From Aureimonas ureilytica DSM 18598 = NBRC 106430 (lineage in GTDB: Bacteria > Pseudomonadota > Alphaproteobacteria > Rhizobiales > Rhizobiaceae): a stretch of DNA of 64,000 nucleotides. Below are positions 20,157 to 45,580 of the stretch, in pieces (within the stretch, counting starts at the first letter, position 1; the number at the start of each line of letters is the position of its first letter). A model generated the notes under the pieces. That model was given only the letters and a program-made list of their open reading frames with translations, was not told the DNA's origin and did not search any database. The translations under genes were made by a program, and so were the position numbers. The stretch lies in the NCBI RefSeq assembly GCF_000382705.1, contig NZ_ARQE01000002.1, positions 186,001-250,000 on the forward strand, given 5' to 3'.

Positions 20157-20546
20157 TCAGGGCTGCCACGCGTCGTAGTCGCCGGACACGCGCGGGCGCT
20201 CGGCGGTGTTGAGCAGCGAGCCCTTCGGGCGATAGGCCTGCCCCGTTCCGGTCAGGTTCACCTGATGCGGCTTTTCCCACTCGCGGGCGCGATAGTCTTC
20301 CTTCGGCGGCGGCGTGTCGACGCGGTGATGCATCCAGCCGTGCCAGCCGGGTCCGATCGCGGTCGCTTCGGCCGGACCGTTGTAGATCACCCAGCGGCGC
20401 TTGCCGTCGGCGGTCTGGTAGTACTTGTTGCCGCGCTCATCCTCGCCCACGGGCTGGCCGAAGCGCCACGTGTAGAAGCGTGTGCCGATCGTCTGGCCGT
20501 TCCACCAAGTGAAAATCTGAATAAGCCAAGGGCTCACTTTGCTCAT
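20157..20546 (-). CDS. NADH:ubiquinone oxidoreductase accessory subunit, NDUFA12 family
   Basis: This 129-residue protein is homologous to the mitochondrial complex I accessory subunit NDUFA12 (B17.2), which alphaproteobacterial complex I also carries. Motifs are FTWWNGQTIGTRFYTWRFG, ERGNKYYQ, RRWVIYNGPAEAT, WHGWMHH and the C-terminal DYDAWQP. The ATG at 20546 is preferred because AGGAAAGAG lies just upstream; a longer frame from 20570 exists. It sits far from the nuo operon, which is at the right end of this window. This is the usual situation for this gene. Confidence 0.92.
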   Translation of the reverse strand: MSKVSPWLIQIFTWWNGQTIGTRFYTWRFGQPVGEDERGNKYYQTADGKRRWVIYNGPAEATAIGPGWHGWMHHRVDTPPPKEDYRAREWEKPHQVNLTGTGQAYRPKGSLLNTAERPRVSGDYDAWQP

Positions 20547-40135: not shown

Positions 40136-43100
40136 TCAGGTGAGTTCGACGTCCACGACGCCCGGCGCCGCCTTAATCGCGCTCGCGATCTGCGGCGAGA
40201 CCCGGAACTTGCCGGGAAGCGCGATCTCCACCTCCCGCTCGCCGTCGGCCGGGCGAAGGATCAGGGAGATGTCGCTGTCCCCCCCGGCCCTCAACTGGCT
40301 CTGGAACAGCGAGAAGGGCTTGGCATCGCGCAGGATGATGCGCAGCGCCTTCTGCATCTTCTCCGCCTCGCTTTCCAGCGATTGCACGCCGGAGGCGCGC
40401 AGCGAGATGCCCTCGGGGCGATCCTCGGCCGAGACGGTCACGATCACCGATGCACCCGGCTCCAGCATGTCGCGGAAGGTGATCAGGGTCTCCGTGAAGA
40501 GGACGACTTCGTACTGCCCCGTCGGATCGGACAATTGCACGATGCCGATCTTCCCGCCGGTGCGCGTCTTGCGCTCCTGGCGCGACGTGACGGTTCCCGC
40601 CAGCCGGCCCGCCGTCTGCCCCTTGCGCACGCCCGCCACGACCTCGGCATAGGTCTGGACGCGCATGCGCTTCATGGCGTCCTTGTACTCGTCCAGCGGA
40701 TGGGCCGAGAGGTAGAAGCCGATCGACTGGAATTCGCGCAGCAGCTTGTCGGCGGTGGTCCAGCCCGGCACCTCGGCAAGGCGCAGCGGCTCCGGCTCGC
40801 CGCTTCCGCCGAACATGTCATGCTGGCCGGAGGTCCGTCCCTCCTGCGCCAGCGCGGCATAGGCGGAGAGCTTTTCGAGATTGCCGCAGAGCTTGGCCCG
40901 GTCGTGACCGAAACAGTCCAGCGCGCCGGCGGCGATCAGATGCTCCAGCGTGCGCTTGTTGACGATCTTCGGGTCGATCCGCGCGCAGAAATCCTCGAGG
41001 CTCTTGAACGTGCCGCCGTCCTCGCGCTTCTGCACGATATGGTCCACCGCCTGCTCGCCGACGCCCTTGATGGCGGCGAGCGCATAGATGATCCGGCCGT
41101 CCCGCACTTCGAAGGGGCGGTGCGAAAGCTGAACGGAGGGCGGCACGACCTCGATGCCCAGGCGCTTGGCGTCGAGGCGGAAATCGTTGAGCTTGTCCGT
41201 GTTGCCCATGTCGAGCGTCATGGACCCGGCCAGGAACTCGACCGGATAGTTCGCCTTCAGATAGGCCGTGTGGTAGGAGACGAGCGCATAGGCGGCCGCA
41301 TGGCTCTTGTTGAAGCCGTAGTCGGCGAACTTCGCCAGAAGGTCGAAGATCGTGTTGGCCTGCGCCTTCGGAATCCCGTTCTTGACGCAACCATCGACGA
41401 AGCGCACGCGCTGCACGTCCATCTCCGCGCGGATCTTCTTGCCCATGGCGCGACGCAGGAGATCGGCCTCGCCCAGCGTATAGCCGGACAGGACCTGCGC
41501 GATCTGCATGACCTGTTCCTGGTAGACGATCACGCCCTGCGTTTCCCGAAGGATCGGCTCGATCTTCGGGTGGATGATCTCGACCTCTTCCTCGCCGTGC
41601 TTGCGGGCGTTGTAGACCGGGATGTTCTCCATCGGGCCGGGGCGATAGAGCGCCACCAGCGCGACGATGTCCTCGAACCGATCGGGCCGCATGCCGATCA
41701 GCGCCTTGCGCATGCCGACCGATTCCACCTGGAACACGCCGACCGTTTCGCCGCGCGTCAGAAGCTCGTAGGTCGGCTTGTCGTCCAGCGGCACGGCGCC
41801 GAGATCGATCCGGTCCCCGCGCCGGGCAATCAGGTCCACGGCCGTCTTCAGCGTCGTCAGCGTCTTCAGGCCGAGGAAGTCGAACTTCACGAGCCCGGCC
41901 TGCTCCACCCATTTCATGTTGAACTGGGTGACGGGCATGTCGGATCGCGGGTCGCGATACATCGGCACGAGCTTCGACAGCGGCCGGTCGCCGATCACGA
42001 TGCCGGCCGCGTGGGTCGAGGCGTGGCGGTAGAGGCCCTCGAGCTTCAGCGCGATGCTGAGGAGGCGATCCACCACCTCTTCCTTGCGACGCTCCTCCTG
42101 AAGGCGCGGCTCGTCCTCCAGAGCCTGCGCCAGGGTCACCGGATTGGCGGGGTTCTGCGGCACGAGCTTGCAGAGCTTGTCCACATGCCCGTAGCTCATT
42201 TCGAGCACGCGACCGACGTCGCGCAAGACAGCGCGCGCCTGCATGGAACCGAAGGTGATGATCTGCGCGACCTGCTCGCGTCCATATTTGCGCTGGACGT
42301 AGCGGATCACCTCTTCGCGGCGATCCTGGCAGAAGTCGATGTCGAAATCGGGCATCGACACGCGGTCGGGGTTGAGGAAGCGCTCGAACAGGAGGGCGAA
42401 GCGGAGCGGGTCGAGATCGGTGATCGTCAGCGAATAGGCGACGAGCGAGCCCGCGCCCGATCCGCGACCGGGGCCGACCGGAATGCCTTCCAGCTTCGCC
42501 CATTTGATGAAGTCCGACACGATCAGGAAGTAGCCGGGGAACTTCATGCGCTCGATGACCGAGAGCTCGAATTCCAGCCGCTCGCGATAGGTCTCGACCG
42601 TCTGGCCGGGCGCCGGACCATGGGCGGCCAGACGCGCCTCCAGCCCTTCCTCCGCCTGACGGCGAAGCTCGGCGGCTTCCGCGAGTTCGGCCTCGGTCGC
42701 ATCCGCGTCGGCGCCCGCGAAACGCGGCAGGATCGGCTTGCGCGTGCGCACGCGGTAGGAGCAGCGCCGTGCGATCTCGATCGTGTTCTCGATCGCCTCG
42801 GGCAGATCGGCGAAGAGGACCGCCATGTCCTCCTGCGATTTCAGGCAATGATCGCGCGTCAGCCGGCGGCGATCCTCGTGGCTGACGAGCCGGTTCGAGG
42901 CGACGGCGATCAGCGCGTCATGCGCGTCGAAATCCTCGTTGCAGAAGAAGAAGGGCTCGTTGGTCGCGACCAGCGGCAGGCCGAGTTCGTAGGCGAGCGC
43001 CACGGTCTCGGGTTCGGTGCGGCGGGCCCGTCCCTCGTGCCGCTGCAATTCGACATAGAGTCTGTCGCCGAAGAAGCCCGCCAACGTTTCCAGCCGCGCG

Positions 43101-43606
43101 CGCGCGACCGCGCTTTGCCCGGCCGTGATGGCGGTGCCGATCGGCCCGAGCGGACCGCCGGTCAGAGCGATGACACCCTCGGCCTGCTCGCCCAGCCATT
43201 CCACGAGAACGTGCGGGCGCATATTGCCGTCATGGGCGAGATAGGAGCGCGAGACGAGTTCCACGAGGTTCTCGTAGCCCCTCTCGGTCGACGCCATCAG
43301 AACGATCGACCCGGTCGATCCGAAACCGGACCGATCGCGCGGATTGCCTTCCACATCGTGGAAATCGACTTCGATCTGGCAGCCGATGATCGGCTGAATG
43401 CCGGATTTCGCCGCCTTTTCGGAAAATTCCAGCGCACCGAAGAGATTGCCCGTGTCGGCAATGCCGATCGCCGGCGCGCCGTCGCTTTTGGCGAACTTGA
43501 TGATCTGCTCGGTTCGCAAGGCGCCTTCGAGTAGCGAATAGGCGCTGTGCACCCGAAGATGAATGAACCGCAGCGGCGCAGCGGCGCCCGTCTTCTCTTC
43601 GGCCAT
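40136..43606 (-). CDS. dnaE: DNA polymerase III alpha subunit (replicative, DnaE1)
   Basis: This is the 1156-residue replicative polymerase. The N-terminal PHP domain begins RFIHLRVHSAYSLLEGALR. The palm carries the catalytic aspartates in SMPDFDIDFCQDRREEV and the GPGRGSGAGSLVAY motif. Helix-hairpin-helix, OB (AGTVTSRQERKTRTGGKIG) and C-terminal tau-binding regions follow. The size fits DnaE1 rather than the mutagenic DnaE2, and no imuA or imuB is near. The ATG at 43606 has GAGGA 7 nt upstream; an in-frame ATG at 43732 would add 42 unusual residues. An SOS-boxed microprotein frame lies 181 bp upstream on the same strand with no clear terminator between. Confidence 0.95.
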   Translation of the reverse strand: MAEEKTGAAAPLRFIHLRVHSAYSLLEGALRTEQIIKFAKSDGAPAIGIADTGNLFGALEFSEKAAKSGIQPIIGCQIEVDFHDVEGNPRDRSGFGSTGSIVLMASTERGYENLVELVSRSYLAHDGNMRPHVLVEWLGEQAEGVIALTGGPLGPIGTAITAGQSAVARARLETLAGFFGDRLYVELQRHEGRARRTEPETVALAYELGLPLVATNEPFFFCNEDFDAHDALIAVASNRLVSHEDRRRLTRDHCLKSQEDMAVLFADLPEAIENTIEIARRCSYRVRTRKPILPRFAGADADATEAELAEAAELRRQAEEGLEARLAAHGPAPGQTVETYRERLEFELSVIERMKFPGYFLIVSDFIKWAKLEGIPVGPGRGSGAGSLVAYSLTITDLDPLRFALLFERFLNPDRVSMPDFDIDFCQDRREEVIRYVQRKYGREQVAQIITFGSMQARAVLRDVGRVLEMSYGHVDKLCKLVPQNPANPVTLAQALEDEPRLQEERRKEEVVDRLLSIALKLEGLYRHASTHAAGIVIGDRPLSKLVPMYRDPRSDMPVTQFNMKWVEQAGLVKFDFLGLKTLTTLKTAVDLIARRGDRIDLGAVPLDDKPTYELLTRGETVGVFQVESVGMRKALIGMRPDRFEDIVALVALYRPGPMENIPVYNARKHGEEEVEIIHPKIEPILRETQGVIVYQEQVMQIAQVLSGYTLGEADLLRRAMGKKIRAEMDVQRVRFVDGCVKNGIPKAQANTIFDLLAKFADYGFNKSHAAAYALVSYHTAYLKANYPVEFLAGSMTLDMGNTDKLNDFRLDAKRLGIEVVPPSVQLSHRPFEVRDGRIIYALAAIKGVGEQAVDHIVQKREDGGTFKSLEDFCARIDPKIVNKRTLEHLIAAGALDCFGHDRAKLCGNLEKLSAYAALAQEGRTSGQHDMFGGSGEPEPLRLAEVPGWTTADKLLREFQSIGFYLSAHPLDEYKDAMKRMRVQTYAEVVAGVRKGQTAGRLAGTVTSRQERKTRTGGKIGIVQLSDPTGQYEVVLFTETLITFRDMLEPGASVIVTVSAEDRPEGISLRASGVQSLESEAEKMQKALRIILRDAKPFSLFQSQLRAGGDSDISLILRPADGEREVEIALPGKFRVSPQIASAIKAAPGVVDVELT

Positions 43607-43787
43607 GACGCAATCCTCGGGGTCGGCGCGGGCACCATCAAGGCACCCGCCGAGCCGTGCATCGACGTCGAGCCGCTCGCGCGACTCGCTGTCCATGTCT
43701 TCGGCAAGGAATTCGTCAGTGTCCCAATTCATAGGCCAGAGTCCAGCCCACCTCGGAGGATGTCCCCGTCTTTCGACGGCGGAGCGA

Positions 43788-43871
43788 TCACATCAGTTGA
43801 AGCATCATGGCGAAGCCCGCGACGAAGACGGACACGGCGGTGAGCGAGGCGATTTCTCTGAGAACCAGCAT
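43788..43871 (-). CDS. Putative 27-residue SOS-regulated membrane microprotein (SidA-like architecture)
   Basis: This short frame runs from the ATG at 43871 to TGA. It begins MLVLREIASL and continues TAVSVFVAGFAMMLQLM. Residues about 7-26 form one membrane segment after a short charged start (Arg5, Glu6). GAAGGAG sits 6 nt before the ATG, an excellent ribosome binding site. Two LexA-type boxes lie upstream, at 43892-43906 and 43927-43941. In Caulobacter the SOS division inhibitor SidA is a LexA-controlled inner-membrane protein of 29 residues. Size, topology and control match; I cannot claim sequence homology. It has its own region between the GMC-gene terminator and dnaE. Confidence 0.6.
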   Translation of the reverse strand: MLVLREIASLTAVSVFVAGFAMMLQLM

Positions 43872-43891
43872 TTCGATCTCCTTCAGCTTGC

Positions 43892-43906
43892 GTTCCTACT
43901 TTGTTC
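43892..43906. promoter_or_regulatory. LexA (SOS) box 2
   Basis: GTTC-CTACTTT-GTTC on the plus strand, an exact match to the alphaproteobacterial LexA operator GTTC-N7-GTTC. It ends 21 bp upstream of the microprotein ATG and would cover the -10 region. Confidence 0.65.
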
Positions 43907-43926
43907 CAGTTTTACGGAAACTGCAA

Positions 43927-43941
43927 GAACAAATGCGGAAC
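43927..43941. promoter_or_regulatory. LexA (SOS) box 1
   Basis: On the minus strand GTTC-CGCATTT-GTTC, again an exact GTTC-N7-GTTC. A TTGCAG -35-like hexamer (43926-43921) follows directly, so bound LexA would block the promoter of the minus-strand microprotein. Its centre is 35 bp from that of the second box. Confidence 0.65.
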
Positions 43942-43966
43942 GAGATCGGAAGCCTTATCAAAACGT

Positions 43967-43996
43967 AAAAAAGCCCGACGCCGAGGCGTCGGGCTT
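43967..43996 (-). terminator. Terminator of the GMC oxidoreductase operon
   Basis: On the minus strand AAGCCCGACGCC pairs with GGCGTCGGGCTT and is followed by six T residues. The stem is perfect. It isolates the microprotein promoter from the operon upstream. Confidence 0.92.
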
Positions 43997-44023
43997 CGAA
44001 CCTGTCGATGCCGAGGAAACGGG

Positions 44024-45580
44024 TCAGCCGGCTCGCGAGCGACCGAGGAAATGATCGGCGGTGCGAAGACTGAGCGCCATGATCGTCAGCGCCGGGTTGG
44101 CCGCGAGCGAACTCGGAAACACCGAATTGTCGGCGATCCAGAGGTTGGGAATGTCGAAGCTTTGGCCGAACGGATCGACCACGTTCTCGCTCGCGTCCCT
44201 CCCCATCCGGCAGGTGCCGATCGTGTGCGCCGTGCGGTCGAGCACCCAAATGTCGCTCGCCCCGGCGGCTTCCCAGATCGAGGTCATGAAGCGCACCGCG
44301 TGAGCGCGCAGTCGTTTCTCGTTCTCGCCATAGCCGAACCGGATGATGGGCTTCGGCATTCCGCGCCCGTCCGTCTCGTCCGACAGGACCATGTAATTGT
44401 CGTCGCTCGGCAGGCCTTCGCCGTTTATGCCGATCCCGGCGACATGGTTGTAGCGGTCGAGATAATCCGTCAGCCGCTGGCCCCAAAGGCCGCGCCCGCG
44501 CGCCACCTGATCGGCCCATGTTTGCAGCACCACGCCGAGGCTCTGCACGAGATAGCCGCCCGCGAAATCCGCGTCGCCGGGGCGCAGCATGTCCTCGGTG
44601 ATCAGGGCGGACGGATAGCCCTTGTTCATCCGCATTTCCTGCGGGAACGTGCCCCAGACCTGCGTCGCGACATGGGCCGTGTAGTTGCGCCCCACCTGCC
44701 CGCTCGAATTGCCGACGCCCTGCCGCAGGAGAAGGCGCGGCGTCTCGATCGCGCCGGCGCACAGGAAGACATTGGCGCAGCGCTGCCGCTTCTCCTCGCC
44801 GTCCTGCTGATAAACGACGGCGCAGACGCGCCCCTGCGAGTCGAATTCGAAATGCGTCGCGAAGGAATTGGGGCGAATCTCCGCGCCCCGTGCAACGGCG
44901 AGCGGAAGATAGGTCACGTCCATCGAGGTCTTGGCCCCGTTCCGGCAGCCCTGGTGGCAGTAGCCGCAGTTCACGCAAGCCCCGCGAGCCGGCGCGCCCT
45001 CCTGCTCGAAGCGCCGTGAGACGACCGCGACGGGCCCGTCACTCGCTCGGGCACCGATCGCCGCGCATCCGGCGGCCATGGCCTCTGCGGGTGCGTTCCG
45101 TAGGACCGGCGGCAAAGCGTAGCCTCGAGCCGGGTCCCACGGATAGGAGGGCGGACCGGACACGCCGACGAAGCGCTCGATCTCCTCGTAATAGGGCACG
45201 AGTTCTTCGAGCCGCAGCGGCCAGTCACGCCCCTGCCCCGTTTCGGTGCGCAAGCGCAGGTCGCGCGCGTCGGCGCGCGGCACGAAGGCGCCCCAATGCA
45301 GCATCGAGCCGCCGACCCCGACGCCGCTATTGTTGGCCCCGAAGGCCTCCGGCGTCGCGCCGCCGCTGATCCGCTCGTCCATCCAGTAGAGGTCGGAGGA
45401 CAGCGCCTCGTCAGCCGCGTATTCATCCTGCGAGCGGTTGGACCCCGCCTCCAGCGCGACGACCCGAAGCCCCGCCTTCGCGAGCCGAGCCAGAAGCGGC
45501 GAGCCGCCCGCTCCGGTTCCGATCACCACCGCGTCGACGGTCTCGCCCGGCTGGTACCGCGCCATCTGATCGAGCCTCAT
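44024..45580 (-). CDS. GMC-family FAD oxidoreductase (gluconate 2-dehydrogenase large-subunit type)
   Basis: This is a 518-residue flavoprotein. The FAD-binding start is VVIGTGAGGSPLLARLAKAGLRVVALEAG. A Cys-rich stretch (CVNCGYCHQGCRNGAKTSM) is typical of the gluconate/sugar dehydrogenase branch. The C-terminal catalytic region has HTIGTCRMG and IADNSVFPSSLAANPALTIMAL. Such enzymes oxidise sugars, sugar acids or polyols and pass electrons to a cytochrome or quinone. No signal peptide or cytochrome subunit is seen here. The ATG at 45580 overlaps the stop of the small-subunit gene by 4 bp. The substrate cannot be named. Confidence 0.87.
   Translation of the reverse strand: MRLDQMARYQPGETVDAVVIGTGAGGSPLLARLAKAGLRVVALEAGSNRSQDEYAADEALSSDLYWMDERISGGATPEAFGANNSGVGVGGSMLHWGAFVPRADARDLRLRTETGQGRDWPLRLEELVPYYEEIERFVGVSGPPSYPWDPARGYALPPVLRNAPAEAMAAGCAAIGARASDGPVAVVSRRFEQEGAPARGACVNCGYCHQGCRNGAKTSMDVTYLPLAVARGAEIRPNSFATHFEFDSQGRVCAVVYQQDGEEKRQRCANVFLCAGAIETPRLLLRQGVGNSSGQVGRNYTAHVATQVWGTFPQEMRMNKGYPSALITEDMLRPGDADFAGGYLVQSLGVVLQTWADQVARGRGLWGQRLTDYLDRYNHVAGIGINGEGLPSDDNYMVLSDETDGRGMPKPIIRFGYGENEKRLRAHAVRFMTSIWEAAGASDIWVLDRTAHTIGTCRMGRDASENVVDPFGQSFDIPNLWIADNSVFPSSLAANPALTIMALSLRTADHFLGRSRAG

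Follow-up and report, generated by a model that had tools for sequence, protein, structure and literature searches.

A microgene of 27 codons stands directly upstream of dnaE1, which encodes the replicative DNA polymerase III alpha subunit, in a 64,000-nucleotide stretch of the Aureimonas ureilytica DSM 18598 genome (contig NZ_ARQE01000002.1, positions 186,001 to 250,000; hereafter the window), and the best explanation of it is that it is, very probably, a syntenic ortholog of sidA that encodes an SOS-induced inhibitor of the divisome. SidA of Caulobacter is an SOS-induced inner membrane protein of 29 residues that interacts with FtsW (PMC4211646), and Caulobacter lexA mutants filament through sidA (PMC12700426). 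Orthology is the best reading because four Caulobacter genomes hold, upstream of dnaE, a 29-codon open reading frame (ORF) with a LexA box and a single predicted helix. The microgene is real and conserved, and the observation from which we started is exact and not due to chance: the LexA boxes are conserved with the gene, the synteny with dnaE is common to Caulobacter, and the peptides share residues.

Conservation of the microgene and its LexA boxes

A search with the window peptide as a single sequence matched 61 genomes in all, the weakest at an E value of up to 0.3, and these included all 21 genomes of the window's genus, its own among them. All 21 genus copies are 27 codons long and free of gaps and internal stops. 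The pooled ratio of nonsynonymous to synonymous differences (pN/pS) in the genus alignment was 0.50, versus 1.06 and 2.42 for the two other frames, at a pS of 0.595 that is near saturation. At least one exact LexA box (GTTC-N7-GTTC, on either strand) was found within 90 bp of the ATG in 20 of these genomes, 14 of which have two; the exact box is missing near the ATG in genome G015 (locus L019).

The number of boxes in the window proves nothing by itself, since a third exact box at 20245 brings the total to three and three are within chance expectation (mean of 1.86 in shuffled windows, with at least three in 30 of 100 shuffles); it is conservation that carries the proof. Across the genome the box motif occurs 88 + 93 times, versus 32 + 27 for the reversed motif used as a control. 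The single LexA-domain gene found (G000:C2:113216-113404, minus strand) has an exact box of its own at C2:113447-113461, 42 nt ahead of its ATG, and the motif therefore suits this organism.

We searched 199 genomes of the bacterial family to which the window genome belongs (the family, below) with an alignment of 17 members, and 171 matched at the lenient limit of E ≤ 1. The 128 family loci examined are a sample of the better matches, including 80 further matches taken down the list to an E value of about 0.01, with some skipped; loci L027, L029, L021, and L023, which are the same places as L010, L020, L030, and L028, were left out, as were the second or chance matches L024 to L026. An exact box lies within 120 bp of the ORF start at 115 of the 128 loci, versus none for the reversed control motif, and 45 loci have two or more. 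Chance boxes are ruled out as an explanation by this conservation, together with that at the class loci described below, when set against the controls. In 58 of the 115 boxed promoters the first base of a TTGAC is 9 or 10 bases ahead of the box, and a CATAAT-like stretch follows from +14, which leaves the box occupying the promoter spacer; the window promoter is a variant, with one box on each side of its -35-like hexamer.

The 113 distinct family proteins are 27 to 29 residues long and have F at column 17, D or E at column 7, and S or A at column 10 without exception, with R, Q, K, H, or Y at column 6. The microgene is also present in Shinella sp. PSBB067, in Sinorhizobium sp. K101, and in Sinorhizobium meliloti (CP090106), where MADFVRDLAAFASMSLFIVSISVIALGL, with overlapping boxes, lies between an ATP-binding cassette (ABC) transporter gene and dnaE; by eye, 25 of the 28 residues of the S. 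meliloti peptide are common to family peptide L284, from which we take the family to be Rhizobiaceae in a broad sense. No gene is entered at this place in the S. meliloti gene table, which declares itself incomplete. No microgene was seen in the 700 bp read in Methylobacterium bullatum, and no NCBIfam or Pfam model matched any of six family members. Searches of plasmids and phages by tblastn with bare peptides gave nothing useful; such queries are below the reach of the method, because it missed the known plasmid-collection members L116 to L118. Locus L278 holds a family-like ORF, MLGFVRDVVSLLAMGGFLTCASLWITLI, with no exact box, near a gene that by eye we take to be a CckA-type histidine kinase.

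Relation to dnaE and the leader-peptide alternative

At 98 of the 128 family loci, the stretch read downstream contains a same-strand DnaE match, and such linkage would also be expected of a LexA-controlled leader peptide, or upstream ORF (uORF), that tunes dnaE1 expression. A terminator-like site separates the two genes in only 2 of the 89 boxed members that are followed by DnaE, which also fits a leader and is the reason why SOS transcription may read through into dnaE1. A translated small ORF, sORF25, has been scored in the 5' untranslated region of S. meliloti dnaE1 by Hadjeras et al., who name it when they consider small ORFs in such regions as possible regulatory uORFs (PMC10117765); it shares its neighbourhood with the S. 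meliloti family member and may be the same ORF, and the main text of that paper mentions neither LexA nor SidA.

A dnaE leader is nevertheless unlikely, because 25 boxed loci (among them L041, L237, L287, and L293) show no DnaE match in the 1.2 to 1.5 kb read downstream, so that the peptide is not always linked to dnaE. In 21 of the 25, the strand opposite the microgene carries the longest downstream frame, a weak point, since DNA of this kind often contains long antisense frames. The amino acid sequence is conserved, whereas the distance to the DnaE match varies from -10 to 892 nt, and the phage copies described below are in phage-like surroundings. We therefore give the leader scarcely any probability.

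Charge of the peptide and the toxin alternative

In E. coli, TisB is an SOS-induced membrane toxin of 29 residues that is amphipathic. A TisB-like toxin, which would depolarise the membrane and slow growth with the divisome not its target, would resemble the microprotein in size, hydrophobicity, and LexA control. The window 27-mer has one predicted membrane segment (17-residue hydropathy of 2.05) and, unlike TisB, no charge after position 9; 113 of the 115 boxed family members likewise have no K, R, D, or E past position 9, with a net charge of 0 to -2. The Rfam scan of 43400-44300 listed no family at gathering score and no antisense RNA family, although absence from Rfam is weak evidence. The synteny with dnaE is a further difference from TisB, and the Caulobacter member at the same place fits a known divisome inhibitor. 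A toxin of this kind is, in our judgment, very unlikely.

Caulobacter and other orders of the class

Four named Caulobacter genomes were reached through a surface-layer query followed by a dnaE lookup. All four have a 29-codon one-helix ORF directly upstream of dnaE, in identical or near copies, with GGAGG and the LexA box GAACATCTTGTGAAC, and this place, directly upstream of dnaE on the same strand, is the one that the microgene occupies in the window. Published locus tags are CCNA_02004 for sidA (PMC10769358) and, in an older numbering, CC1926 for dnaE (PMC1839093). We take the Caulobacter ORF upstream of dnaE to be sidA. The offset that we assume between the CCNA and CC numberings makes the two tags compatible with adjacency of sidA and dnaE.

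Outside the family, 129 dnaE-upstream regions (29 plus 100 further loci, from the 362 genomes with a match) were collected, and 125 were used after four of under 400 bases had been dropped; the list was sorted by likeness to the window DnaE and is thus biased to nearer relatives. An exact box lies within 600 bp upstream in 30 of the 125 regions, compared with 2 for the control motif and a mean of 2.0 (maximum, 5) in shuffled sets. A box followed within 110 bp by an ORF of 22 to 50 residues with one membrane segment was found in 23 regions, against none with the control motif, none in 20 shuffled sets, and 2 on the reverse strand. Reading upstream of dnaE in this way revealed class candidates that the profile search had mostly missed.

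Similarity between the family and Caulobacter peptides

Peptides were scored with a profile made exclusively from family proteins; L028, L245, L274, L278, and L296 were left out of it by hand, and so were loci that lacked both a box and DnaE. The three distinct Caulobacter peptides scored 14.7 to 15.6 bits, and for L112 none of 10,000 shuffled peptides reached its score. Aligned without gaps and by eye on the 28-residue family frame, in which the window 27-mer starts one column later, the Caulobacter peptide has R6, E7, A10, L11, S13, V14, A15, F17, and V18, each of which occurs in the family at the same column; R-E, L, V, and the invariant F are thus common to both. This evidence points to homology with SidA and, for so short a peptide, is supportive rather than decisive.

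A first decoy set of 228 ORFs contained family members and came to 209 distinct ORFs once repeats were removed. Twelve of these score at least 13.3 bits (L024, L025, L028, L059 twice, L073, L245, L278 twice, L296, L116, and L117), the other 197 at most 4.4; the high decoys are either loci that had been fetched by family similarity or S. meliloti and Shinella members (L116 and L117).

The same scores bear on the possibility that the peptides are analogues of SidA, unrelated hydrophobic sequences to which several lineages gave rise independently at a LexA promoter ahead of dnaE. Several class candidates (L078, L102, L100, L126, and L218) indeed do no better than their shuffles, and distant class members cannot be placed by sequence alone because they are too short and too hydrophobic. 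Against convergence, L075, L097, L171, and L080 each outscore every one of 10,000 shuffled versions, as Caulobacter L112 does, and the key columns are common to the Caulobacter and family peptides. We regard separate origins as improbable and orthology with sidA as the better account.

A number of observations weigh against the sidA reading. Ninety-five of the 125 nonfamily regions have no exact box, as do 13 of the 128 family loci (1 at a contig end and 5 doubtful members); profile A2 matches only 18 of 384 other class genomes at E ≤ 0.05, and only G612 among these 18 was seen to have its match upstream of dnaE. Between the window and Caulobacter peptides, 8 of 27 residues are identical (ungapped, by eye), so that sequence similarity alone is thin. 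One of 100 shuffles of the Caulobacter L113 peptide scored as high or higher against the family profile, and as many as 63, 41, and 21 of 100 did so for L078, L102, and L100, respectively, and 805 and 393 of 10,000 for L126 and L218; other ORFs from the same scan also score in the Caulobacter range (L059, 18.2 bits; L073, 14.4 bits). C. vibrioides is absent from the four Caulobacter genomes, and the equation with SidA relies on length, LexA box, predicted helix, and location. The -35 and -10 elements of the window microgene are themselves poor, and its function is a predicted one.

The sequence-only reading had proposed a SidA-like SOS checkpoint peptide, perhaps part of an unannotated microprotein family in Hyphomicrobiales. 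Comparison of the regions upstream of dnaE, in which frame and boxes are kept across the sampled genus and family, the lack of any frameshifting change in the 21 genus genomes, and the Caulobacter ORF at the same place all lend support to such a peptide; the family-wide loci and the similar genes upstream of dnaE in other orders of the class are in line with a microprotein family.

Features of the window

The local features on which that reading drew, namely a 27-codon frame with one predicted membrane segment behind a GAAGGAG site with a 6-nt spacer, and two exact LexA boxes bracketing TTGCAG, are all present as described (Table 1). Read on the gene strand, the distal box is GTTC-N7-GTTC and the proximal box GAAC-N7-GAAC, and 17 nt separate the -35-like TTGCAG from the -10-like CAAAGT. 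A consensus promoter scan of the region upstream of the microgene listed no promoter, and no terminator-like site was listed on the same strand between the microgene and dnaE1. The genome has two more DnaE-type genes besides the window dnaE1, at G000:C2:350568-353156 and C1:439103-441877.

Table 1. Microgene, promoter elements, and neighbours in the window
Feature	Position	Strand	Remarks
Putative SidA-type microprotein ORF MLVLREIASLTAVSVFVAGFAMMLQLM	43788-43871	minus	27 aa; from ORF listing
Ribosome binding site GAAGGAG	43878-43884	minus	6-nt spacer to microgene ATG
Proximal LexA box GAACAAAGTAGGAAC	43892-43906	minus	exact match; overlaps -10-like hexamer
-10-like hexamer CAAAGT	43898-43903	minus	weak match by eye, inside proximal box
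-35-like hexamer TTGCAG	43921-43926	minus	directly after distal box
Distal LexA box GTTCCGCATTTGTTC	43927-43941	minus	exact match; abuts -35-like hexamer
Terminator-like hairpin	43970-43997	minus	between preceding gene and microgene promoter
dnaE1, replicative DNA polymerase III alpha subunit	40136-43732	minus	starts 55 nt past microgene TGA stop

Phage copies

SidA-like 32-mers, MRDLLHDIASFVAVSTFIATFAVWAGYLAEKV and copies 88 to 100% identical, were found at L028 (G036:C27, 1501-1599) and in the IMG/VR contigs L302 to L305 (5001-5096). L028 adjoins an exonuclease VIII gene (phrog_412) in phage-like surroundings; L302, which matches the L028 prophage contig in peptide and in length, is probably the same element, and L304 and L305 have one peptide in common. 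A longer variant of 44 to 45 residues (MRAYLREL...) is present at L024, at L025, and in viral contig L301 (5001-5135). The L301 peptide is the same as that of L025, so that the two may be one element, and a frame near L025 looks by eye like a prophage-type repressor. No exact LexA box lies within 400 bp of the 32-mers in the viral contigs, and L028 is box-less as well. It is possible that the phage-borne 32-mers are Kil-like division inhibitors taken from the host.

Discussion

By extension from Caulobacter (PMC4211646, PMC12700426), we infer LexA binding, induction by damage, membrane insertion, and a target in the divisome. LexA on the two boxes, which bracket the -35-like hexamer and overlap the -10-like one, would repress the microgene; upon DNA damage, active RecA would lead to cleavage of LexA and free it, and the 27-residue peptide would then be translated from a good ribosome binding site. 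The peptide, whose N terminus has a short charged stretch (R5-E6), would insert into the inner membrane as a single helix and would keep the late divisome or septal wall synthesis (FtsW, FtsI, and FtsN in Caulobacter) inactive, so that there would be no division before repair.

With SidA of Caulobacter crescentus (CCNA_02004) the window peptide shares size, a single helix, a LexA box, the place upstream of dnaE, and R-E, L, V, and F-V; it differs in having 27 rather than 29 residues, in its limited identity (8 of 27), and in two boxes that flank a -35-like hexamer. DidA of Caulobacter, which binds FtsN, is likewise a small one-helix membrane division inhibitor, the function being a predicted one for the microprotein, but it has 71 residues and is DriD dependent and SOS independent (PMC4211646), whereas the window ORF has 27 and carries LexA boxes; it is not a DidA. 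YneA, SosA, and DivS are SOS-induced membrane division inhibitors of other bacteria (PMC13396833, PMC4211646) and are alike in the kind of function, here predicted, but are described there as unrelated genes, and YneA has a LysM domain.

We lean, with little more than even confidence, toward an ancestral alphaproteobacterial checkpoint in which a LexA-switched membrane peptide of 26 to 47 residues has stood upstream of dnaE1 from an early point in the history of the class and has been read through into dnaE1, so that damage would both stop division and raise the replicase, and which was later relocated in some family members and captured, without its box, by temperate phages, in which the copies would behave as lambda Kil does.

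Among the literature matches listed, with subscription papers mostly uncovered, no paper links SidA to the window's bacterial family, and no SOS division inhibitor is named for rhizobia and their kin; two apparent mentions of SidA (PMC10811719 and PMC9638019) were rejected, as the passages matched concern the Sidak test. Our preferred reading is that the microgene is sidA itself, of which we found no earlier mention for this family. The SOS division inhibitors of different groups are mostly presented as having been invented separately, and yneA, divS, chiZ, and sidA have been called unrelated genes (PMC4211646). Should SidA prove to be a wide family, one small deletion would make it possible to test the damage checkpoint in rhizobia and their kin. 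The 113 distinct natural variants suggest residues, F at column 17 and the acidic residue at column 7, that may be in contact with the divisome. A wide SidA family would also suggest what the translated small ORF in the S. meliloti dnaE1 leader does, if that is the same ORF, and SidA, if the reading is true, would be no peculiarity of Caulobacter.
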